DNA of 26,462 bases. Origin: Candidatus Njordarchaeota archaeon. Its GTDB lineage: Archaea; Thermoproteota; JANJXX01; Panguiarchaeales; Panguiarchaeaceae. Every line of letters begins with the position of its first letter. Position 1 is the stretch's first letter. Under the pieces are notes generated by a model, which was not told the origin of the DNA, did not search any database, and saw only the letters and a list, made by a program, of their open reading frames with translations. Made by a program: the position numbers and the translations under genes. Positions 7,545 through 26,312 of the stretch are shown here, piece by piece. The stretch is from contig JAGSHR010000175.1 of the NCBI GenBank assembly GCA_029855985.1, positions 1-26,462 of the forward strand. The letters run 5' to 3'.

Positions 7545-8933
7545 TCATGAAAATTCTTTCACTTTATTGACTACTTGTGTATTTAGCTTATTGATTAGCA
7601 TTGTGCCATATAGTGCCTTCCAAGTCACATCCCTAATATGAACTGTTGCCCACTCGCCTAAAAAATCTCTAGCACCCTCAGGATCATCTACATAAACTAG
7701 CTTGTAATTTTTAGTCCTGCCTATCAATCTTTTATCATCCATATCAAGAATTAGAACATCAAATTTATTGTGTAGGAATTCTAAGTTTTTTTCTAGGCTT
7801 ATCTTACGAACAAGCCTGGATATCTCAGCTGATCTTTTTTTAGCTAGACCACTATGAACCTTCGGGTACATTTTTGATGCAACAGTCATTGGTCGGTCAC
7901 CATATCTTGAAACATTAACTACATCCGGCCTTGTCTCTTGCAAAAGTTTCAATGTTAGATAATGATCCTCCTCGGTCTCCCCTGGAAATGCTACTATTAT
8001 ATCTGTAGCTATCGAAACATCGTTCCCCAACTTTCGCCTAATGATCTTTACTTCCTCCTTAAAGAGATCTGCTTTATGGCCCCTTTTCATCAATTCAAGA
8101 ATTCTATCCGAACCAGATTGAACAGGTATGTGTAAAAACTTGTATATCTTGTTACACTCTTTCATTACATCTAATAGTCGATCTAAAACTGGATATATCG
8201 TGTTTGGACTGGCCATTCCAACTCTAACCATGAACTCCCCACGAATTTCACATATTTTTTCAAGTAATTCAGCTAAGTCCGTTTTAATATCTGTACCATA
8301 TGGACCTAAGTCTTGTCCTGTTAGTCTGATCTCCTTCACGCCTTTCTCAACAAATTTTTTCACGAGTTTTATAATTGAATCTGGAGGGTACGAATAATGG
8401 TGCCCCCTTGCAAATTTGGTTATACAGAACGTACATGTACCTAGACAACCTTGGGATATGGGTATAACCCCAACCCTTTCTTCACTAGGATTATCACTAT
8501 TTAATAGTATGGAAGGTTTTTCTAAATAGACCTTACCTATGGCTTTTATTGTTTCCCCTTTTAGAGCTTTTTTTACGTACTCCGTAATTTTATCGATATG
8601 ATAAGGGCCTACGAGACTTGCCTTGGGATTTATTTTCTTCACGAGATTTGGTAGAGCTTCTGCCATGCAACCTGCTACGATTAAAGGTTTATTAAGAGTT
8701 GAGAGCGCTTTTATTCTATATCGCATTCTATCCTCTGTGACTTTCTTTACAATACATGTGTTAATAATTATAATATCTGCGTCGTACGGCGAGAACGCTC
8801 TTTCAAACCCGCTCAGGCGCAGTAAATTCTCCATTGCTTCAGTGTCATATGCATTAGCAGCACATCCATAAGATTCAATGTAATATTTTACCAACGGGCT
8901 CACCTGAGATACGCCATCATAAATATCCATCAT
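7545..8933 (-). CDS. tRNA-t6A37 methylthiotransferase (radical SAM, e-MtaB type)
   Basis: Adds a methylthio group to N6-threonylcarbamoyladenosine at tRNA position 37. The 462-residue protein has the full family order. The N-terminal UPF0004 domain starts YYIESYGCAANAYDTE and has cluster cysteines C24, C60 and C89. The radical SAM domain has SQGCLGTCTFC (C163, C167, C170), and a C-terminal TRAM-like domain spans about 390-455. The YGCAxNxxD start is typical of the archaeal/eukaryal e-MtaB (CDKAL1) branch. The start is uncertain. ATG 8933 lies about 32 nt from a TATA-like TTATATTATAAT (about 8958-8970) and would be leaderless. TTG 8894 has a strong GGTGAG ribosome site five bases upstream and begins just before the conserved domain. 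Confidence 0.92.
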   Translation of the reverse strand: MMDIYDGVSQVSPLVKYYIESYGCAANAYDTEAMENLLRLSGFERAFSPYDADIIIINTCIVKKVTEDRMRYRIKALSTLNKPLIVAGCMAEALPNLVKKINPKASLVGPYHIDKITEYVKKALKGETIKAIGKVYLEKPSILLNSDNPSEERVGVIPISQGCLGTCTFCITKFARGHHYSYPPDSIIKLVKKFVEKGVKEIRLTGQDLGPYGTDIKTDLAELLEKICEIRGEFMVRVGMASPNTIYPVLDRLLDVMKECNKIYKFLHIPVQSGSDRILELMKRGHKADLFKEEVKIIRRKLGNDVSIATDIIVAFPGETEEDHYLTLKLLQETRPDVVNVSRYGDRPMTVASKMYPKVHSGLAKKRSAEISRLVRKISLEKNLEFLHNKFDVLILDMDDKRLIGRTKNYKLVYVDDPEGARDFLGEWATVHIRDVTWKALYGTMLINKLNTQVVNKVKEFS

Positions 8934-9030
8934 GAGTTATCTATCATGTATTAATAGTGGGATTATAATATAACATCTTTATCAAGGAGACAAGAAGTTT
9001 TATTTTACTAGAAAGACGAAATATTTCGAT

Positions 9031-9051
9031 AAGAAAATAGAAGCAGAAGAA
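9031..9051 (-). terminator. T-rich tract downstream of the 5S precursor
   Basis: Reading the minus strand, GTTCTTCTGCTTCTATTTTC directly follows the 3' arm of the 12-bp flanking stem. It is a plausible archaeal terminator for the 5S transcript. Confidence 0.45.
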
Positions 9052-9200
9052 CGACCCTAGGAATTTCCGCGTTCAGATGAGTGCGGGTATTACCACCCCC
9101 CTATGGCCCTCCCGAAGGAGAGCAGAGGGCTCTCCCGCGGCCTCCCGGACCGCAGTACTCACCCTCCGTGGGGGTGCTTGACTTACGGTTCCTAGGGTCG
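9052..9200 (-). ncRNA. Precursor of permuted 5S rRNA with flanking stem and BHB-like splice motif
   Basis: The minus-strand transcript starts with CGACCCTAGGAA (9200-9189) and ends with its perfect complement TTCCTAGGGTCG (9063-9052), a 12-bp stem. Next to it CCGT (9188-9185) pairs with GCGG (9070-9067), giving a 4-bp central helix with one U-G pair. It is followed on each strand by a 3-nt bulge: AAG (9184-9182) and AAA (9066-9064). This is the archaeal bulge-helix-bulge arrangement, with both bulges 3' of the central helix as in tRNA introns. Cleavage after the second bulge base on each side would free 9182-9065. The inner flanking helix is weak, so this is a relaxed BHB. The central strand GCGG is also the 3' strand of mature helix III, so the precursor and mature folds are alternatives. 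Confidence 0.8.
9065..9182 (-). rRNA. 5S ribosomal RNA, circularly permuted gene (predicted 118-nt circular product)
   Basis: All 5S elements are present but in rotated order. Reading the transcript: loop B (GTCAAG), helix II 3' strand CACCCCC (9176-9170), then the helix V/IV arm. In that arm GAGGG (9166-9162) pairs with CCCTC (9129-9125), and GCGGTC (9153-9148) pairs with GGCCGC (9142-9137), with the loop E bases GAGTAC and GGGAGAG. Then follow helix I, GCTCTCC (9123-9117) with GGAGGGC (9112-9106), closed by a TTCG tetraloop (9116-9113); helix II 5' strand GGGGGTG (9100-9094); and helix III, CCGC (9086-9083) with GCGG (9070-9067), plus loop C CACTCATCTGAAC. In ordinary 5S genes helix I holds the two ends; here it is sealed, and the ends lie in loop B. 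Joining 9065 to 9182 recreates CGGAAGUCAAGC, matching the conserved CGGAAGUUAAGC. No linear 5S copy is seen in the window. Confidence 0.9.
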
Positions 9201-9221
9201 AAATCTAATAATCCTAAGATA

Positions 9222-9231
9222 GTTTAAAAAG
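9222..9231 (-). promoter_or_regulatory. Strong TATA/BRE promoter of the 5S gene
   Basis: The minus strand reads CCGAAAACTTTTTAAAC: a BRE-like purine tract followed by TTTTTAAAC. It lies about 26 nt upstream of 9200, so transcription should start at or next to the first base of the flanking stem. The 5S gene is thus its own transcription unit, separate from the 16S gene. Confidence 0.75.
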
Positions 9232-9582
9232 TTTTCGGTTTCTATTTTGCACTTTAAGCACTCTCATAAGCGCATAATTTTTAACGAAAACTCTGTCGGA
9301 AACACGAAATAAACCCATAAGACGAATCGATTAAACTTAATCCAGATCGGATCAGAGACAGGAGAAAAAACCATTAATGCTATTGTATTCGCTTCTTTAT
9401 ATAGTTTATTGAAATAATTGCTTTTAGTGCGAATAAAGGTTTTTGGTGTCTCCCCTAGTTGTGGGACTTAAACTTATTGCAACACTCTTGATGGTTTCCG
9501 AGCTAAGTTCATATGAGCTAAGTTGATGGAAATAATGGAGTTAAACCTCTAATACATAGCCTTTCGTCGAATGCCCAAAGAA
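9232..9582. other. Intergenic region without a supported gene
   Basis: About 350 nt between the 5S promoter and an inverted repeat. It is AT-rich and I see no coding frame with good content. GAGCTAAGTT is repeated at 9500-9509 and 9515-9524, and TTGATGG occurs on either side of it. No RNA gene can be supported. Confidence 0.5.
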
Positions 9583-9604
9583 CCTCAACGCTGAGGCGTT
9601 GGGG
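9583..9604. repeat. 9-bp inverted repeat (hairpin) upstream of the HerA-like gene
   Basis: CCTCAACGC (9583-9591) and GCGTTGGGG (9596-9604) form a stem with one G-U pair and loop TGAG. Such hairpins occur at ends of IS200/IS605-type elements, but no transposase is present, so a remnant is only a possibility. It could also be a terminator or regulatory hairpin. Confidence 0.5.
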
Positions 9605-9637
9605 GTTAACCAAAAGGGTTCTCTATTGGTATTAAAT

Positions 9638-12211
9638 ATGCAATATCCAGGAAAAAAGAAAAGTAACATCGAGTTAATCAATGTGGACAACAGATTATTA
9701 TTTGCTGTTAAAAAGAATTTGGGTTGGGATCTCTTTGCAATATATTTAGTCTCGCCCCAGCATGGCAACTACAAAAATTTGGACCTACTCCAGCACAATG
9801 CCAATTTTGATTTGATCTTGTGCAGCAACGATATGAAGAACATTTCTGTTAGTTTTCTTTTCATTAGGAGGCAAAATATCTTCAAAGTGCTATTGATATT
9901 TCATAAATCGATACTTTATTTGACAAACAGAAACATTAACGACTTTTTTGATAAAGTCGACGGATTTATAAGTTTTTTTAGTATTCTAAATGCAACCTCG
10001 CAACCTTTTCTTGTGAACGAAAAACAATTTAGAAAGATTATCTTTAACAAATTCTATTTTTTGCGAAGGATAGGTATCCTTGAATTATATCGCGAAGAGA
10101 ACCCCCTTATTAAGATAAGTAAAAGAGAAGAGGACCTAAGTGAACTTCATATAGATACTTCTCTTCAAAATTTCCAAATAAGATTTCCTGAACACTCAAC
10201 TGGTTTTTTGGTAACACTAAAGTGCTCAAACAAAACAAGGATTTTCTATCCTAAGGCAAATGGTTCACCTAGGCAAAGTATAATACTATCAATGGCTATT
10301 TTCGGAAAGAATGATAAACGCTTTTCCTACAAAAAACCTATGAATGATATTATATCGCTACTTGTCGCATTAGGGATCATTAAGAAGCGAAACTATTTAA
10401 GGGAAACTTACAATAAAAAAACAATTTTCTCCTTAATTACAAAACAACCGCTCTTAATACCAAATATGCCCGTAGAATCAAGTTTATTTAATAAGGTTGT
10501 TCAAATTTTCGTATCGCTCGCGATAATCTGGAGCCCACAGGAAGAGAGAACCCCACTGAATACGGTAATCCTTAAGGAAAAATCCCGAGGAGACATATTC
10601 ATAGGCTACCAGAAATTTGGAAATATGAAAGCGCTGCCTTTCTACCTTACATTAGATGATCTAGAGAGGCATGTTTTAATAGTGGGCCCCTCGGGAAAAG
10701 GTAAAACACGCTTAGCAATGCAAATCGTGAAAGAAATAGTTAATAAAGGACTTGGAAATGTTTGGATAATCGATTTTCACGGAGAATACCAGTATCTCAA
10801 AGACATGGGATTTTTACACATAACTTTTGACGACCCTTTGAATCCAATAGGGTTAAATATCTTCGATACCAAAGAGGACCCTCAAGATTATGCCTACTTT
10901 TTATCTAGACTGTATTCTGAAACACTCAAAGGGACGTCTTTTGAGCTTTCCCCCCAGATGGAGTATATTTTCCACGAGAGTATTTTTAGAACTATTGTGG
11001 AGGATAAGGAAATATTAAGAAATGCTTTAGGTTTCATAATAAATCTGTGGAGTGCCTCTAATCAAACAATTAAGGTCCAAATGCATAATACTTTCTTCGC
11101 TATTATAAATCGGGTGAGACCTCTCTTTACGGGGGTTATTTCATCCATATTTTGGGTTAAGGAAACTAATTTAAACTTTGACAATCTCGTGGGTAAAAAT
11201 GTCATATTTGATTTATCATCACTTGTACACAAGGGGGCCTCTAAAAGGGACCTCATAATACTTATGAACATATTGTTAAAATTGTTGTTCAATACCCTTT
11301 TGAAAACAATGAATTACGACTTGAATAGAAGAACGTTCTTAGTAATAGAGGAAGCAAGGTATATTGTTCCGTGGCGAAATAGACAGAGTGCTGCGGACAC
11401 TTCTATTATAGAGGATTTTGCGATTCTTGCTCGAAAGTATGGCTTGTCGCTTATCACAATTACTCAATCATTCTCATCGATATCTACTGATATTATCGAA
11501 AATGTTGGTACTTTTTTTCTATTGGGAGCTGACCCCAAAGCGACAGATATACCGATAATAGAACTACCAGAAGCCATAAGTGCTAGTAAGTTACCCCCCA
11601 AGAACGCTTTAGTCTTTACAACTACCATTCCTGGAATCGTTCATATCGAAATTAACCACATTTCCAAAAAAGTTCAAAAGAGAACTAACGTTAGAGAGGA
11701 ACGTATAATTAAAGTAAAACAAAACGTGATGAAAAAATATGAGCCATTACTACTACCTTTCGATTATGTTGTCGGATTACTTATTAATGAAAGCATAAAT
11801 GAGGATAATCTAAAAGAATACCTTCGAGACGATGATGCAGTGAATACATGCACAGATGAATTCAGTGGTCATATCAATACACTGAACTACGTTACACTGA
11901 AACTTTCAAATTGGTTTTTCAATCAACACGAGAACAATATACCTAGCCAGCCATATGTAGTTATTCAAAAAGCAAGAGAAAAACCAGAGCAATTTTTTGA
12001 AATCATAAAACCAATTTTTCTAATAAAAGAAAACCAGAAACTAAGAGAATTATTACTATGCGTTCTCAGAAGAGCTTTAGACTTGGCCTATAGGAATCTC
12101 GATGAAAATACGAGACAAAAGTTATTAAAATCTGCGGAACTCGAATGGGAATTACAAGACTTGGCGCTTAACCTCATTAGACAATTTGAAAACGTTTCAG
12201 CGCTAAAATGA
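9638..12211 (+). CDS. HerA/VirB4-like P-loop ATPase, orphan
   Basis: The 857-residue protein carries a FtsK/HerA-superfamily ATPase core. Walker A is GPSGKGKT (about 350-357), preceded by DDLERHVLIV. The HerA-type strand WIIDFHGEY is at about 376-384. Walker B with its catalytic glutamates is FLVIEEAR (about 567-574), and the sensor strand LITITQSFSS lies near 605. The roughly 290 residues before the core and 150 after it match nothing I recognise. Such ATPases pump DNA in conjugation (VirB4), act in DNA end processing (HerA-NurA) or serve defence systems; no NurA, Mre11 or transfer genes adjoin. ATG 9638 was preferred over TTG 9599, which lies inside an inverted repeat. The gene is long, alone and AT-rich, and follows a noncoding stretch, suggesting an acquired or mobile origin (inference). 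Confidence 0.8.
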   Translation: MQYPGKKKSNIELINVDNRLLFAVKKNLGWDLFAIYLVSPQHGNYKNLDLLQHNANFDLILCSNDMKNISVSFLFIRRQNIFKVLLIFHKSILYLTNRNINDFFDKVDGFISFFSILNATSQPFLVNEKQFRKIIFNKFYFLRRIGILELYREENPLIKISKREEDLSELHIDTSLQNFQIRFPEHSTGFLVTLKCSNKTRIFYPKANGSPRQSIILSMAIFGKNDKRFSYKKPMNDIISLLVALGIIKKRNYLRETYNKKTIFSLITKQPLLIPNMPVESSLFNKVVQIFVSLAIIWSPQEERTPLNTVILKEKSRGDIFIGYQKFGNMKALPFYLTLDDLERHVLIVGPSGKGKTRLAMQIVKEIVNKGLGNVWIIDFHGEYQYLKDMGFLHITFDDPLNPIGLNIFDTKEDPQDYAYFLSRLYSETLKGTSFELSPQMEYIFHESIFRTIVEDKEILRNALGFIINLWSASNQTIKVQMHNTFFAIINRVRPLFTGVISSIFWVKETNLNFDNLVGKNVIFDLSSLVHKGASKRDLIILMNILLKLLFNTLLKTMNYDLNRRTFLVIEEARYIVPWRNRQSAADTSIIEDFAILARKYGLSLITITQSFSSISTDIIENVGTFFLLGADPKATDIPIIELPEAISASKLPPKNALVFTTTIPGIVHIEINHISKKVQKRTNVREERIIKVKQNVMKKYEPLLLPFDYVVGLLINESINEDNLKEYLRDDDAVNTCTDEFSGHINTLNYVTLKLSNWFFNQHENNIPSQPYVVIQKAREKPEQFFEIIKPIFLIKENQKLRELLLCVLRRALDLAYRNLDENTRQKLLKSAELEWELQDLALNLIRQFENVSALK

Positions 12212-12251: not shown

Positions 12252-12845
12252 CTATTTCTTTTGCAACTTTAGTTTAGTATAGCTAAGTATCACTTTTGCT
12301 AGAAAATTGAAGGCCTCATTTATGTTTTCCCCTGTTTTTGCAGATGTTTCAATATATGGTATTTGAACGCCTACTGTTTTTGAGGTGATTTTAGCATATT
12401 CTCTCCCAGCTTCGGGAGGTACAGGATTCGGGCTACTATCCCTTATATCAATTTTGTTTCCCACCAGTACAAAAGGCAAAACCGCACCACAATGTCTCCA
12501 ATACTCAGATAGCCACTTCGGAAGATTATAATAAGTCTCAGGCCTAGTTACATCAAAAACTAAGAGAGCCCCTTGGGCACCCCTATAGTAGAGCGGTCTT
12601 ACTTCATTGTAGGCTGGCTGCCCAGCCAAGTCCCATATCAACCACTCAAACATTATTTTTCCTAAATCTGGGTCCTCATAAACATTTCTCTTAACATAGA
12701 AATCAGCACCTATCGTTCTTTTGTACTCATGTTCGAATGATTCCCCAAGATACCTTTTGGCAATAGATGTTTTACCAACTCCTCCATCTCCAATTAACAC
12801 AATCTTTACTCGTATTCTTTTCATCGGCTTCTCATAACTAGCCAT
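12252..12845 (-). CDS. Rab/Ras-like small GTPase
   Basis: A 197-residue GTPase with all G boxes. G1 is GDGGVGKT (19-26), the G2 switch I threonine is T44 (KRTIGADF), G3 is WDLAGQ (71-76, with Q76 in the position of Ras Q61), G4 is NKID (130-133) and G5 is ETSAK (166-170). The tyrosine-rich YYRGAQGALLVFDVT stretch after G3 is strongly Rab-like. There is an acidic insertion (about 56-66) between the beta strands of the interswitch. The C-terminus (LKLQKK) has no cysteine, so eukaryote-style prenylation is not expected. ATG 12845 was chosen because GGTGAT lies just upstream; the longer frame adds 15 unconserved residues. Such proteins are abundant in Asgard archaea and are thought to act with roadblock-type regulators. 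Confidence 0.93.
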   Translation of the reverse strand: MASYEKPMKRIRVKIVLIGDGGVGKTSIAKRYLGESFEHEYKRTIGADFYVKRNVYEDPDLGKIMFEWLIWDLAGQPAYNEVRPLYYRGAQGALLVFDVTRPETYYNLPKWLSEYWRHCGAVLPFVLVGNKIDIRDSSPNPVPPEAGREYAKITSKTVGVQIPYIETSAKTGENINEAFNFLAKVILSYTKLKLQKK

Positions 12846-13254
12846 CAGATCACCACTACAACATCTAAAATTATTCCCAACGATAATCACAATAGCATAT
12901 TTTAATTAAAGATAAATTGCTATATAAAATTAATTTCAAAATTAACTAACAGCTAACAACAAACATTTTTCAAGATGACATAGACCATATCTAAAAAATC
13001 ATTAAAAATAAATGTTAATTTCTTGATAATTATAAATACTAAAAAATTAACTAGTTAAGATAGACACACAAATTATCCACGAAAAGATTGCCCAAGTTTA
13101 TTCAGAAATGTCTAGCCTTATATAAACTGAATAGATACCCGCCCTAAGAGTGTACTTCTTACGGACTTTTTATAGGGACCTATTTCCCTTTTTCTAAATT
13201 CCATAACATTTAGTGTATTTTAGATTAAAATAAAAAAACTAAACTAAATCAGTA
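12846..13254. other. Intergenic region; possible small transcript near 13117-13195
   Basis: This very AT-rich stretch has no supported coding gene. Inside it CTTATATAAAC (13117-13127) resembles a TATA box. About 20-25 nt on lies a GC-richer patch with an imperfect hairpin: CCTAAGA (13143-13149) pairs with TCTTACGG (about 13157-13164). T-tracts follow at 13167-13171 and about 13186-13193. This might be a small RNA, but I cannot place it in a family. Confidence 0.3.
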
Positions 13255-13340
13255 TGGTGCGGGGGGAGGGATTCGAACCCTCGCAGGCCTACGCCACCAG
13301 AGCCTCAGTCTGGCCCCTTTGACCTCTCGGGAACCCCCGC
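13255..13340 (-). tRNA. tRNA-Leu (anticodon GAG)
   Basis: The minus strand folds as a class II tRNA. The acceptor GCGGGGG pairs with the 3' side, the anticodon arm is CCAGA-CTGAGGC-TCTGG (anticodon GAG), there is a long variable arm, and the T loop is TTCGAAT. The 3' CCA is encoded (13255-13257). No intron. It lies 16 nt downstream of tRNA-Ile on the same strand. Confidence 0.95.
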
Positions 13341-13356
13341 TTTTCTAGAATAGAAT

Positions 13357-13454
13357 TGGTGGGCCCGGGCGGATTCGAACCGCCGACCTCCCGGTCTCTG
13401 AAGACTAAAATTGCCTCTATCAGCCGGGCGCTATAGCCACTAAGCTACGGGCCC
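13357..13454 (-). tRNA. tRNA-Ile (anticodon GAT) with a 22-nt intron
   Basis: The exons fold as GGGCCCG acceptor, CCCGG/CCGGG anticodon stem and loop CTGATAA (anticodon GAT). The 22-nt intron (13396-13417) sits at the usual position 37/38. Its BHB is canonical: CTGA of the exon pairs with TCAG of the intron, with bulges TA/G and AG/A on opposite strands and an inner AGGC/GTCT helix. CCA is encoded. Its 5' end is only five bases from the end of the RNase P protein gene upstream, so both may be in one transcript. Confidence 0.96.
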
Positions 13455-13459
13455 TCATT

Positions 13460-13861
13460 TCATCTTCTATATTTTCTATGTTTTTGCTTTATAATTTTTT
13501 TGGTTTTAAACATTTTCTCCTTTGTTTTAATCTTGGAATTGAGGAAGCTTCTTGATTGACCGACTAAGTACCTCTTAGAACCGTTACATAGCGTACAAGT
13601 TATAACAATTCTTTTTCTATTACTTCTCGTTCTGACTTTCATGTTTACTCCAGGAAAAATAAATGATTTACACCTTTTGCAGTAAAAATACTTGATTTCG
13701 GGACTCCATTTTAAACCAAAATTTTTGATAAAGGATCTTACCAATTTGCCCATTTTCTTGGCAGCTTTTATTTCTCCTTTTTTATATAAGATTAAACCAT
13801 ATTGATGCAACATTCTAACATGGTTTATAGCAATTTTATTTCTTATTAATAACTTGTTCAA
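13460..13861 (-). CDS. rnp4: Ribonuclease P protein component 4 (Rpp21/RPR2 family)
   Basis: A protein subunit of archaeal RNase P, which trims tRNA 5' leaders; it works as a pair with Rpp29. The 133-residue protein has two N-terminal helices (about 8-50, with MLHQYG and KKMGKLVRSFIKN) and then a zinc ribbon. The ribbon has CKRC (61-64), the strand FPGVNMKVRTRSNRKR and CTLC (about 89-92), the usual four-cysteine layout. The tail is strongly basic, as expected for RNA binding. It is followed after five bases by tRNA-Ile and preceded after 13 bases by a small membrane protein gene, all on the minus strand. Its coding end therefore lies practically within the leader of an RNase P substrate. Confidence 0.9.
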   Translation of the reverse strand: MNKLLIRNKIAINHVRMLHQYGLILYKKGEIKAAKKMGKLVRSFIKNFGLKWSPEIKYFYCKRCKSFIFPGVNMKVRTRSNRKRIVITCTLCNGSKRYLVGQSRSFLNSKIKTKEKMFKTKKIIKQKHRKYRR

Positions 13862-13874
13862 TCTATCACCCGAA

Positions 13875-14216
13875 TTAAACTACGAGAGACCCAAACCTAA
13901 AAATCACTAAATAAACCCATAATAGAACACTTAGTTTGAAAAAAATAAAAACAGATGATGTCTCCAAGGATACTGAAGCTAACTTTCTAAATAATTCCAC
14001 TAGTATGGGCACTTCAACTGAAGCAACCAAAACCAATAAAGAAGCGTTAGGAGTTATTGCTATGATAATATAAAGAAGAGAAAAGACAATAGCTAAATTA
14101 GGAAACAAACTCTCAAATCTAAGATAATACAACGAAATCAAATTCAACCCTACAGCGGTCCCACTCATATATGAAACAAGGCGTGACAAAACAAACACCA
14201 AAAAACACATTAACAA
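13875..14216 (-). CDS. Small hydrophobic membrane protein, function unknown
   Basis: A 113-residue frame that is almost wholly hydrophobic, with about three or four membrane segments (near 3-20, 42-55, 58-75 and 88-106). I recognise no family. It lies between tRNA-Arg and the RNase P protein gene on the same strand, 13 bases before the latter. No clear ribosome binding site precedes ATG 14216, and internal ATGs (for example at 14210 or 14168) are possible starts. Coding status is moderately likely because of its length and consistent hydrophobic pattern. Confidence 0.5.
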   Translation of the reverse strand: MLMCFLVFVLSRLVSYMSGTAVGLNLISLYYLRFESLFPNLAIVFSLLYIIIAITPNASLLVLVASVEVPILVELFRKLASVSLETSSVFIFFKLSVLLWVYLVIFRFGSLVV

Positions 14217-14243
14217 CGAGAAATAAAAGCAAACAAAAACAGT

Positions 14244-14321
14244 TGGCGGGCCCGGCGGGACTCGAACCCGCGACAGACGGCTTAGGAGGCCGCCGCTCTA
14301 TCCATGCTGAGCTACGGGCCC
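14244..14321 (-). tRNA. tRNA-Arg (anticodon CCT)
   Basis: On the minus strand the acceptor GGGCCCG pairs with CGGGCCC. The anticodon arm is GCGGC-CTCCTAA-GCCGT (anticodon CCT), and the T arm is GCGGG-TTCGAGT-CCCGC. Discriminator G, with CCA encoded. No intron. Confidence 0.95.
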
Positions 14322-14340
14322 ATCCATCATTAAGTTAAAT

Positions 14341-14416
14341 TGGTGCGCGGGCCGGGATTCGAACCCGGGCAATCGGCTTGGGAGGCCGACGTCCTAACCA
14401 GCTAGACCACCCGCGC
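14341..14416 (-). tRNA. tRNA-Gly (anticodon CCC)
   Basis: On the minus strand the acceptor is GCGCGGG with CCCGCGC, and the anticodon arm is TCGGC-CTCCCAA-GCCGA (anticodon CCC). The T arm is CCGGG/CCCGG with TTCGAAT. CCA encoded, no intron. It lies 19 nt upstream of tRNA-Arg. Confidence 0.95.
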
Positions 14417-14428
14417 AGGATACAATTT

Positions 14429-14506
14429 TGGTGCCCCGGGCGGGATTTGAACCCGCGTCGCGGACTTGAGAGGCCCGCATGCTTGGCCGGGCTACACCAC
14501 CGGGGC
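14429..14506 (-). tRNA. tRNA-Glu (anticodon CTC)
   Basis: On the minus strand the acceptor is GCCCCGG with CCGGGGC, and the anticodon arm is CGGGC-CTCTCAA-GTCCG (anticodon CTC). The T loop is TTCAAAT. CCA encoded, no intron. It is the first gene of the Glu-Gly-Arg tRNA group. An AT-rich stretch at about 14515-14530 could be its promoter. Confidence 0.95.
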
Positions 14507-14662
14507 GAAAGCGTTCTTATGTATTTTCTAACTGCGAACCTAAGCTTATTTCATCTTAAAAGTCATTTTATAGTTTTAGTGATAGAAAATTTAAATTTTT
14601 AAGCATTACTCTAACTATTAATCAATTTGAGTCTTTTGAAATGATGACTGATAGTGATCAAG

Positions 14663-14851
14663 ATGGTAAAAGAAACCGAGAATCTACCTCATGGAGCTAA
14701 ATCTAGATATATGTGCGAGAAATGTGGTGCGGTGTTCGAGATCAGTGAAATTTTTATGAGTGAAAATGATTTACCGATGTGCCCAATTTGTGGCCACGTG
14801 ATATTAGTTAAGGTCAGACCAAAAACTAGAAAGATAATTCTCGGAGTCTAA
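14663..14851 (+). CDS. rpoP: RNA polymerase subunit P (Rpb12)
   Basis: A small zinc-ribbon subunit of archaeal RNA polymerase that sits near Rpo3 and Rpo10. The 62-residue product has CEKC and CPIC knuckles and the family tail ILVKVRPK, which inserts into the polymerase core. The spacing between knuckles (about 20) is a few residues longer than in many homologues because of an EISEIFMSENDLP loop. ATG 14663 is favoured over GTG 14654, since GTGATC lies just before it. A TATA-like GAAAATTTAAAT lies near 14584-14595. The priS gene follows 13 nt later in the same direction, so transcription and replication genes are linked. Confidence 0.88.
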   Translation: MVKETENLPHGAKSRYMCEKCGAVFEISEIFMSENDLPMCPICGHVILVKVRPKTRKIILGV

Positions 14852-14864
14852 AAATGGTGTTTCA

Positions 14865-15752
14865 ATGGTGACAACGAGCTTAACAGAAGCAGCAAAAATT
14901 TATTATTCCAAATTCTTCTCTTTTGAACCAATGTTCAAAGTTATCCCAATAAAGACATTCCACTTAAGGGAATTCGGTTTTACTGTTTCATCCAACGAAG
15001 AACTCCGTTTCATACGAAATATATCGTTTAAAAACCCATCTGAACTTAAAAAATTCTTACTCGAAAGAAACGTTGTAGGCGCATATATTGGCGCCGTTTA
15101 CACTGAAGGTCCAACACCCAAAAACCCTATCTCTAAAGAAAACTGGATAGGAAGAGAACTAGTAATAGATCTAGATCTCACAGACTACGATGACATTAGG
15201 ACATGCGGGAAAGGAAAAGATCACTATTGCCCCAAGTGCTGGCCGTTAATAACTAATGCCGCCCTATTTATAGACGAAACATTAAGGGAAGATTTTGGTT
15301 TTGAGAAAATAACATGGGTTTACTCAGGTCGCCGCGGACTCCACGCATGGGTTCATGATGAAAACGCATTCCACTTAGGGGAATTAGAAAGAGAAGCAAT
15401 AGCAGATTACATAAACATGTCGCAACATGGTTTTTACCCTATAAAATATAGGGAAAGGGCCCTCAAAATTTATGGAAAAGAATACCAAGTAAACATGATA
15501 GACCCTAAACAGCAGAAGATCATGCTTAAAAAAATATGGAGCAAAATCGTTGAAAAGCTACCCCGAATAGATAAAAAAGTCACAATGGACACTGTTAGAC
15601 TACTTAGAATGCCAGGTAGTATACACGATTCAACAGGTAGGATAGTCACGATAATAAAAGATATAGAAACGTTCTACCCCGATCAAATTCCCAACGTATG
15701 GGAGATAACAGGACTAGAAAAACCAAAAATTAAATTTAGGAAAAATGACTAG
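14865..15752 (+). CDS. priS: DNA primase small (catalytic) subunit
   Basis: Makes RNA primers for replication together with PriL. The 295-residue protein has the catalytic motif ELVIDLDLTDYDD (D102, D104), a zinc knuckle (C114, H120, C122, C125) and the nucleotide-binding SGRRGLHAWV (about 154-163). The third acidic residue lies near D242 in MDTVRLLRMPGSIH. It is somewhat shorter than the roughly 330-350 residues common in this family, mainly at the C-terminus. ATG 14865 has GGTG upstream. PriL is not in the window. Confidence 0.95.
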   Translation: MVTTSLTEAAKIYYSKFFSFEPMFKVIPIKTFHLREFGFTVSSNEELRFIRNISFKNPSELKKFLLERNVVGAYIGAVYTEGPTPKNPISKENWIGRELVIDLDLTDYDDIRTCGKGKDHYCPKCWPLITNAALFIDETLREDFGFEKITWVYSGRRGLHAWVHDENAFHLGELEREAIADYINMSQHGFYPIKYRERALKIYGKEYQVNMIDPKQQKIMLKKIWSKIVEKLPRIDKKVTMDTVRLLRMPGSIHDSTGRIVTIIKDIETFYPDQIPNVWEITGLEKPKIKFRKND

Positions 15753-15863
15753 GCCTTAAGTTTTAGAGTTTATAAAAAATTCAAAGCAAAACAGAATCAT
15801 CCAAAAGAAAAAACGCATGTCCCTTATTTTAGGATTTTAATTATTTGAATTTAGAAGAAAATT

Positions 15864-15939
15864 TGGTAGCCCCGGAGGGATTCGAACCCTCGTCGCCTGG
15901 TCCAGAGCCAGGCATGCTTGTCCGCTACACCACGGGGCT
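15864..15939 (-). tRNA. tRNA-Gln (anticodon CTG)
   Basis: On the minus strand the acceptor is AGCCCCG with CGGGGCT, the anticodon arm is CCTGG-CTCTGGA-CCAGG (anticodon CTG), and the T arm is GAGGG-TTCGAAT-CCCTC. CCA encoded. A TATA-like TTCCTTATAAG lies about 20-25 nt upstream (15957-15967). Confidence 0.95.
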
Positions 15940-24398: not shown

Positions 24399-24787
24399 CC
24401 TCTAATTTCATTTATTATCCCCATAAAACCCAAAATGTTCATGAATAGGACCATTGCCTCATGTTTCTTGGAAAGTTATTTATGCTTCCGGATTTCTCCA
24501 GGCTAACCCTCTACAACTATAAGCCCTCTTATTATTGAATTTAAGAATAAGAACAAGAAAACTCCTTTAATAAAAAAGGGCGTACAATAGTAGACTGCTT
24601 AGTAGTGCTTAATATAGCTTTAGAACTTTTAAACATCATCAATTTAAAACCATATTACACTTTCGATTCATGCAAGACAAGACATTCAATAAAAAAATAT
24701 AAATCAGGTAAATACACTATCTACATAATAACCACATGGTTTTCCACTCTATACACACATAAAAACCCAAAATTACTTGGTGATCCT
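24399..24787. other. Intergenic region before the second small GTPase
   Basis: About 390 nt with no supported gene. The in-frame extension upstream of the GTPase start has no conserved content. AAAATATAAATCAG (about 24696-24709) may be the TATA box of the GTPase gene, giving a leader of about 60 nt. I see no RNA gene. Confidence 0.5.
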
Positions 24788-25327
24788 ATGAGCACCCCTC
24801 CTCAAAAATACATAAAAGTTGCATTTATCGGGGATTCTGGAGTAGGTAAAACCTCACTCATAAAAGCGTTTATTGGAGAAGACATAGCCAATGTTAAAAG
24901 CACCGTGGGAATCGACAACTACACACTGAAAAAGGAAGGTCTAAATGTGATTATATGGGACTTTGCAGGTCAAAAATGGTTCCTTGAAATCTTAATAGAT
25001 TTCCTGAAGGGAGCGAAGATTATAGTTTTAGTCTTCGATTTATCAGAACCAAGAACATTAATGAACATAGTAAGATATTGGGTACCGAACATTCATAAGC
25101 ACGCAGACAAAGATGCATTCATTATCCTCGTTGGCAATAAAAAAGACATAAAGACTATATCCGATGATGTTCTTATAAAGTTCGTGGATGACCTAAAACA
25201 AAAGATAAAAATTCAACTATTCTTACAAACCTCAGCAAAATTGAAAGAAAACGTCTCCCGACTATTCGAAGCAATATTCGAAATAGTTAAAATGAATGAA
25301 AAAATCAGAGAAAACAAGAAAGCATAA
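24788..25327 (+). CDS. Divergent Ras-like small GTPase
   Basis: A 179-residue GTPase. G1 is GDSGVGKT (15-22), switch I has T39 (STVGIDNYT), G3 is WDFAGQ (57-62), G4 is NKKD (117-120) and G5 is TSAK (148-151). It is shorter than the GTPase at 12252 and lacks its acidic insertion; switch II (KWFLEILIDFLKGAK) is hydrophobic and unlike Rab. There is no C-terminal cysteine. ATG 24788 has GGTGAT five bases upstream; the longer frame adds 61 residues without GTPase features. It converges on the V4R-like and roadblock genes, which are typical partners of such GTPases. Confidence 0.92.
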   Translation: MSTPPQKYIKVAFIGDSGVGKTSLIKAFIGEDIANVKSTVGIDNYTLKKEGLNVIIWDFAGQKWFLEILIDFLKGAKIIVLVFDLSEPRTLMNIVRYWVPNIHKHADKDAFIILVGNKKDIKTISDDVLIKFVDDLKQKIKIQLFLQTSAKLKENVSRLFEAIFEIVKMNEKIRENKKA

Positions 25328-25907: not shown

Positions 25908-26312
25908 CTATTCACTTTCTATAATTTTTAATATTTTATCTTTAGCCTTTTTCATTGAAAGCAATAACAAACCAAGGTTAACATCTTTTTTAGCCATTGT
26001 TGCTAAAACAATTTCAGGATTCACCGAAATAATCGCTATTAAACCATTCTCCCCCTTTACAACAAGATCTTCAACAGAACCTTTTTCTAACTCTTCTAGA
26101 ACCCTCGAGCTAACATTAAGTAGAGAAGCAGACATAGCTGCTACCAAATCCCTATCCAAATTTTCTCGAATCAATGAAGCTATAACCAACCCATCATTCC
26201 TGACAATTAAACCACCATCAATTTCTCTTACTTTACTTTCTAATTCTTTTAGAACACCAGTAAGAGCTTCGCCAAGGGTCTCTACTGGTTTTCTCCTAAG
26301 CGATAAGGGCAT
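25908..26312 (-). CDS. Roadblock/LC7 (MglB-like) protein
   Basis: Roadblock proteins form dimers that bind and regulate small GTPases. The 134 residues show the fold order. They start with the helix LGEALTGVLKELESKV, then the strand DGGLIVRNDGLVIASLI, the helix DLVAAMSASLLNVSSRVLEELEKG, and the strands VEDLVVKGENGLIAIISVNPEIVLATMAKKDVNLGLLLLSM, ending in a long helix. ATG 26312 is preceded by GGGGGTTGA. TATA-like AT-rich stretches lie upstream (about 26331-26343 and 26374-26386). The V4R-like gene follows it. Confidence 0.9.
   Translation of the reverse strand: MPLSLRRKPVETLGEALTGVLKELESKVREIDGGLIVRNDGLVIASLIRENLDRDLVAAMSASLLNVSSRVLEELEKGSVEDLVVKGENGLIAIISVNPEIVLATMAKKDVNLGLLLLSMKKAKDKILKIIESE

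Follow-up and report, generated by a model that had tools for sequence, protein, structure and literature searches.

A rotated 5S rRNA gene in the genome of a likely member of the Njordarchaeia, and the predicted splicing of its transcript

Introduction

The 5S rRNA is nearly universal, and the order of its helices is treated as fixed. In a piece of archaeal DNA of 26,462 nucleotides (called the window below), a locus was noticed in which all 5S helices appeared to be present in another order. This raises the questions of whether the locus is a true 5S rRNA gene, whether the cell uses it and, as the usual ends of the molecule are gone, how its transcript might be turned into a mature RNA.

Genomic context

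Apart from the 5' part of an archaeal 16S rRNA gene, the window encodes EndA, TBP, Rpp21, two Ras-like GTPases, and a Roadblock protein, which marks it as a piece of an archaeal genome. Among the best 120 of 7,997 matches to its ABCE1 protein, the nearest named ones were from Candidatus Njordarchaeia (77%) and Njordarchaeales (66%), and copies that were 100 and 96% identical were seen in other public sources. The host is likely a member of the Njordarchaeia, ABCE1 being the one basis of this assignment. The genes of the two Ras-like small GTPases and the Roadblock/LC7 protein, located at 12252-12890 (minus), 24605-25327 (plus), and 25908-26312 (minus), are eukaryote-like signature genes. EndA and the 16S rRNA gene share a strand, with EndA upstream and 236 bases between the two. 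A 3' CCA is encoded in all six tRNA genes called by ARAGORN (13255-15939, minus).

The 5S locus is located on the minus strand between the genes of a MiaB-type methylthiotransferase and a HerA/CedD-like ATPase. The latter gene is divergent to it and starts some 400 bases away; its product scored 70.5 bits with the CedD model, far under the cut-off of 600, and is possibly a DNA-transfer ATPase.

Gene order and fold

The 5S gene occupies 9200-9052 of the minus strand, that is, a 12-bp outer stem and everything inside it (Table 1). Read from 9200, it opens with the 12-nt arm CGACCCUAGGAA followed by CCGU and AAG, after which come the 3' strand of helix II, the arm of helices V and IV, helix I closed by UUCG, the 5' strand of helix II, and helix III. 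The V/IV arm contains GAGUACUG and the GGGA of loop E. When the minus strand is folded without constraints, the minimum-energy structure (-77.6 kcal/mol) shows the outer stem, the V/IV arm, and helices I to III; helices I, II, and V are complete with 7 bp each, and helices III and IV are present as well. A reading of the plus strand was dropped, the 5S being on the minus strand, and the plus-strand fold was not used.

The original prediction had placed the 5S helices in rotated order within 9052-9200, with the 5' strand of helix I starting at 9112 and the usual ends joined by TTCG (9116-9113). It had named no strand. The order was borne out by the minus-strand fold together with the rotated covariance match described below; the TTCG joint agrees with both the sequence and the fold, and the start of helix I was likewise confirmed. 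That the locus is a real rotated 5S gene is regarded as virtually certain.

Table 1 Features of the rotated 5S locus and of related genes in the window
Feature	Position	Strand	Basis or remark
BRE/TATA-like element GAAAACTTTTTAAAC	9222-9236	minus	11/12 scored consensus positions
Leader arm of 12-bp outer stem, CGACCCTAGGAA	9189-9200	minus	pairs with 9063-9052 in minimum-energy fold
Central BHB helix, leader strand CCGU (predicted)	9185-9188	minus	four pairs, one G-U, with GCGG 9070-9067
Bulge AAG (predicted), cut 9183/9182	9182-9184	minus	geometry; cut rule from tRNA-Ile intron
Mature circular 5S, 118 nt (predicted)	9065-9182	minus	full-length rotated-model match with the same ends
Loop B GUCAAG (9182-9177), then helix II 3' strand CACCCCC	9170-9176	minus	rotated covariance alignment, fold
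Arm V/IV with loop E	9124-9167	minus	rotated covariance alignment, fold
Helix V, GGAGGGU with GCCCUCU; helix IV between 9155 and 9135	9167-9161 with 9130-9124	minus	
Helix I, usual 3' strand GCUCUCC	9117-9123	minus	pairs with 9112-9106
UUCG tetraloop joining usual 3' and 5' ends	9113-9116	minus	sequence, fold
Helix I, usual 5' strand GGAGGGC	9106-9112	minus	fold; best HMM rotation starts here
Loop A CAUAG; helix II 5' strand GGGGGUG	9105-9101; 9100-9094	minus	fold, rotated covariance alignment
Helix III, CCGC with GCGG, around loop C	9086-9083 with 9070-9067	minus	fold, rotated covariance alignment
Bulge AAA (predicted), cut 9065/9064	9064-9066	minus	geometry
Trailer arm of outer stem, UUCCUAGGGUCG	9052-9063	minus	fold
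T-rich tract TTCTTCTGCTTCTATTTTCTTA, likely terminator	9030-9051	minus	sequence; directly after stem
16S rRNA, archaeal, 5' part	1-532	minus	Rfam search
EndA, tRNA-splicing endonuclease, proposed processing enzyme	769-1323	minus	PF01974 E 7.4e-31; PF02778 E 3.1e-14
MiaB-type methylthiotransferase	7545-8933	minus	
HerA/CedD-like ATPase, 870 aa, DUF87	9599-12211	plus	
tRNA-Ile(GAU) with 22-nt strict BHB intron in anticodon loop	13357-13454	minus	sequence reading; ARAGORN call tRNA-Ser(aga)

Comparison with 5S models

At gathering score, the Rfam model RF00001 found no 5S match anywhere in the window. In native order, two minus-strand matches stayed below the cut-off of 38, one with 20.4 bits (nominal 9-111) and one with 19.8 bits (nominal 1-120); either aligned well in one half only. 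The expectation that a standard tool might miss or split the gene was thus correct. Order aside, the 5S helices and the conserved loop sequence of an RF00001-type RNA are present in one connected molecule. A match to the model of the permuted mitochondrial 5S, RF02547 (106 positions), was not listed for 8940-9300 at E <= 10, the best alone of overlapping same-clan matches being kept.

Two covariance models, one linear and one rotated, were built from the same 26 rows, comprising 15 bacterial 5S genes from the phylum to which a Ruminococcaceae genome belongs, 10 5S genes from haloarchaeal plasmids, and the Rfam consensus. For the rotated model, the rows were cut between GGAA and GUUAAG and given arbitrary tetramers at the joint, so UUCG was not favoured. 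The rotated model matched 9182-9065 over its full length (positions 1-121) with 58.9 bits (E 4.5e-11), and nothing else in the window matched it at E <= 10; 27 of the 32 model pairs were standard in the alignment and five were not. The linear model reached 15.8 bits (E 0.059) with a good alignment in the first half only. The E-values from both custom models are rough. As the ends of the rotated match follow the chosen rotation point, they agree with the cut sites proposed below and are no proof of them. Neither Rfam nor the two covariance models gave a second 5S match within the 26-kb window.

A sequence-only HMM made from 25 linear 5S genes was scanned over all 118 rotations of the 118-nt circle. 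The best rotations started at the 5' strand of helix I and scored 31.2 bits (profile 7-101), against 8.1 bits for the native order, while shuffled circles gave a match in 11 of 500 cases with a top score of 5.0 bits. With an HMM from the 10 haloarchaeal rows, opening at helix I gave 28.9 bits and the native order 10.9; here, 21 of 500 shuffled circles matched, the highest at 2.6 bits.

Specificity of the rotated model and search for relatives

The rotated model was rejected as a general detector of 5S permutation, as it also matches ordinary bacterial 5S loci. On 16 bacterial loci, it produced 36 matches at E <= 10, of which 34 overlap 5S genes by coordinates; the other two, both weak (19.2 and 14.9 bits, in L010), overlap none. 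The top scores were 95.9 bits, spanning a pair of neighbouring genes in L009, and 48.6 bits, which came from L012. The L009 pair (1501-1800, minus) consists of tandem linear 5S genes, one truncated by the contig end, and is a false positive. Matches at E <= 0.001 were present in at least 68 of 119 genomes from one bacterial phylum, and the best among the matches listed had 50.8 bits over 142 nt. At the few places where positions were compared, the matches overlap 5S genes (G009:C1:33382-33465 with 33415-33531 and G001:C25:226-320 with 270-386). The 58.9 bits of the locus described here thus surpass the bacterial single-gene matches only modestly. What sets the window apart is that both halves are in a single 118-nt match, without any further 5S match. 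In another bacterial genome (G016:C1, at 49574-50133, 422988-423547, and 1058611-1060051), each of the ordinary 5S genes has weak 5S-like copies in tandem behind it (38.5-45.1 bits).

Two genome scans yielded no archaeal relatives, one being empty and the other giving two bacterial proteins with 24-26% identity. In viral contigs, neither the rotated-order pattern nor a linear archaeal 5S pattern nor an exact piece of the rotated gene was found, and no match at E <= 1 was obtained for the ring sequence in plasmids or for 9045-9215 in phages. RF02547 gave nothing in two bacterial genomes; it gave nothing in 14 control genomes either, so this result is uninformative on absence.

Transcription signals

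Upstream of the rotated gene, GAAAACTTTTTAAAC was scored against a general archaeal BRE and TATA consensus; a score of 11 or more was reached at 45 of 52,898 positions on both strands. Its TATA-like part (9231-9222) has its centre some 27 nt before C9200, from which a transcription start at around 9200 is predicted. At the other end, the outer stem is followed by the T-rich tract, and a scan of 8900-9400 for bacterial-type terminators detected none. With a promoter-like element and a T-rich tail at the rotated ends, the transcription unit appears to start and end there. Independent transcription of 5S is a crenarchaeal and probably a TACK pattern (PMC8339473), with which a separately transcribed rotated 5S would fit.

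The joint between leader and trailer

A guide to the processing of the transcript may be found in the same window. One of its tRNA genes reads as a tRNA-Ile with a strict bulge-helix-bulge (BHB), CCCGG-CUGA-UA^G-AGGC ... GUCU-UCAG-AG^A-CCGGG. If both bulges are cut after their second nucleotide, 22 nt are taken out and the correct loop CUGAUAA results. Leader and trailer of the 5S gene are complementary over 12 bp, and the same cut rule applied to the predicted bulges next to this stem restores loop B. Cutting at AA^A and AA^G and joining the ends gives GCGGAA-GUCAAGC, compared with CGGAA-GUUAAGC in the consensus; there is no indel, and the right-hand half differs by one substitution. The bulges have the same polarity as in the tRNA-Ile intron, being on the same strands relative to the part that is spliced out.

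BHB-circularised permuted RNAs are defined by a leader and a trailer that can form a central helix of 4 bp with at least one bulge of 3 nt (PMC4731332). The permuted 5S gene has a predicted 4-bp central helix, CCGU/GCGG, and a predicted 3-nt bulge AAA, both in a minor conformer. A strict BHB with helices on both sides is absent from the 5S joint: on the 5S side, AAG is opposite AC in an uneven internal loop, and the weak helix beyond it, UCA/UGA, has three pairs at 37 and 60 °C and is lost at 80 °C. The BHB-constrained fold has -76.0 kcal/mol, as compared to -77.6; its distance from the minimum, 1.6 kcal/mol at 37 °C, grows to 2.0 at 60 °C and to 2.4 at 80 °C. Owing to competition from helix III, the central helix forms with a probability of just 6-9% in the unconstrained ensemble.

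BHB-like geometry with 10-bp arms occurs 19 times on the minus and 11 times on the plus strand of the window and, in shuffled sequences (n = 10), 8 times on average and 14 at most. With a 12-bp arm and a spacing of 60-259 nt, one case was found on the minus strand, at the 5S locus, and one on the plus strand at 1322/1485. As the 10-bp-arm motif is this common, the BHB was rejected as a proof by itself; it has weight only because it is placed at the 5S ends and its product is seamless. Uncut ends also fit loop B, with AAAUU for AAGUU in the RF00001 alignment. The relaxed nature of the BHB, its low share of the ensemble, its one G-U pair, its common geometry, and the fit of the uncut ends all count against a splicing reading.

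The proposed processing enzyme is encoded in the window itself, as is expected of a genome with a BHB-circularised permuted RNA. EndA scored 112.5 bits with TIGR00324 (cut-off 59.6), and the closest solved chains are 3p1z and 3ajv (both 'tRNA-splicing endonuclease'), 2cv8, and 2zyz, which are subunits of crenarchaeal heterotetrameric splicing endonucleases. Enzymes of this type have the most relaxed substrate recognition (PMC4731332), and EndA is also described as taking part in the processing of 16S and 23S rRNA (PMC7714728).

Proposed processing and alternatives

In the scheme that we favour with moderate confidence, the permuted 5S transcript is cut by EndA at the relaxed BHB and then likely ligated to a ring of 118 nt. 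Transcription would begin at about 9200, and the transcript ends would fold into the 12-bp stem. EndA would cut both bulges, and a ligase such as RtcB would join 9065 to 9182. The precursor would switch, GCGG (9070-9067) pairing with CCGU of the leader for cutting and afterward with CCGC, which creates helix III in the ring. The weakest step is the choice of substrate, as EndA would have to pick a minor conformer or act during transcription. The ring would then enter the ribosome. With helix I capped by UUCG, there are no usual ends to open, and the 5S would remain a ring when mature; the predicted restoration of loop B by the BHB cuts makes a ring likelier than a linear RNA with rotated ends. 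Of the original interpretation, the rotated 5S with all its helices stands; the outer arms may be more than new ends, as leader and trailer can form a relaxed BHB. Chances are about even that the ribosomes of the cell use a circular 5S, which would make this the first spliced 5S gene and the first circular 5S of any cellular genome. As to its origin, the gene may have arisen by tandem duplication of a 5S gene with a BHB intron in loop B and subsequent loss of the outer halves, in which case leader and trailer would be remnants of the intron; tandem 5S genes do exist, as in L009.

The working RNA could also stay linear. Its ends would then be rotated, and the 12-bp stem, whether trimmed or left whole, would serve as a new terminal helix at loop B. 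The minimum-energy fold holds helix III and this stem together, helix III beats the BHB helix by the 1.6 kcal/mol given above, and the permuted 5S of brown-algal mitochondria (PMC11528492) offers a precedent. A linear RNA would, however, turn the match of the leader tetramer to GCGG and the two in-register 3-nt spacers into an accident, the chance of which is estimated at a few per cent, and a long helix at loop B could clash with 5S-binding proteins. We consider a linear product rather unlikely.

The remaining doubts concern the gene rather than its product. It could be a rearranged copy, either unexpressed or accessory, with the ribosome supplied by a normal linear 5S elsewhere in the genome, of which 26 kb were covered; the five nonstandard pairs in the rotated alignment would suit a copy of this kind. 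Against it speak the full set of helices and the match of promoter-like element and T-rich tail to the rotated ends; moreover, archaea of this type usually have one 5S gene. A dispensable copy thus seems improbable, and the rotated gene is very probably the working 5S of the cell. An assembly artefact, such as two tandem 5S genes collapsed to one rotated copy, is brought to mind by the score of the L009 pair with the rotated model. A collapse would, nevertheless, not be expected to create a 12-bp stem, a UUCG exactly at the helix I ends, and a promoter-like element 27 nt upstream, and the 26 kb gave no further match to 5S; such an error is judged extremely unlikely.

Significance

Standard searches seek a linear 5S and therefore miss the rotated form, and genomes scored as lacking 5S may carry rotated copies. 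Should the ring prove real, the machinery of tRNA splicing would be needed for the third ribosomal RNA as well, and the predicted route would amount to a novel way of making a ribosomal component that is nearly universal. A real ring would also widen the pattern in which rearranged archaeal RNA genes (tRNA, SRP RNA, and 5S) depend on one endonuclease. Moreover, the reason why 5S exists as a separate molecule with free ends would become testable, the usual ends being gone here.

Comparison with known systems

In the open-access literature, we found no bacterial, archaeal, or nuclear genome whose 5S is described as permuted or circular, and no report on 5S rRNA in Njordarchaea. The original prediction knew of no natural permuted 5S at all, which has to be corrected. 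The mitochondrial form to which this correction refers is not known to have a BHB. It is the permuted 5S of brown algae (Valach et al. 2014, cited in PMC11528492 and PMC10352661), represented in Rfam by mtPerm-5S, RF02547 (PMC5753348). Like the archaeal gene, it is a 5S rRNA with a rotated gene order; unlike it, it is organellar, and the archaeal gene is without a listed match to its model. In an engineered system in E. coli, a permuted 5S was fused to 23S rRNA (PMC7283268). As in the archaeal gene, a 4-nt connector joins the usual ends and the new opening is in a loop, but the construct is man-made and was opened in loop C or D.

In the archaeal pure cultures studied, 16S and 23S rRNAs are often circularised but 5S is not (a background statement in PMC12918454), which counts against the ring reading. 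In its favour, the same paper reports circular transcripts of 16S and 23S rRNA for Asgard archaea. The 23S rRNA of Pyrococcus furiosus differs from the present case in that its gene has the normal order and the permutation comes from RNA processing, with helix 98 excised (PMC7758197). Permuted tRNA genes, described from algae and one archaeon (cited in PMC7758197), resemble the 5S gene in having the 3' half before the 5' half and in passing through a circular intermediate, likely by splicing enzymes; they differ in being reopened at the usual ends, whereas the archaeal 5S is capped by UUCG and a ring may persist.

The SRP RNA of Thermoproteus has a permuted gene and is a circular RNA, its 23-nt leader and its trailer forming a BHB that is cut by the splicing endonuclease (PMC4731332). 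It is not ribosomal, and its ring was shown by RNA-Seq and Northern blot and its BHB cut by a recombinant enzyme. The two genes share a permutation in the DNA, a BHB from a short leader and trailer (predicted for the 5S), a TATA box some 26 nt upstream of the start (for the 5S, a TATA-like part about 27 nt upstream of the predicted start), and ends joined at a functional loop, which was demonstrated for the SRP RNA and which we infer for the 5S. By this analogy, the 5S would most likely be cut by EndA and circularised by a ligase in the same way as the Thermoproteus SRP RNA.
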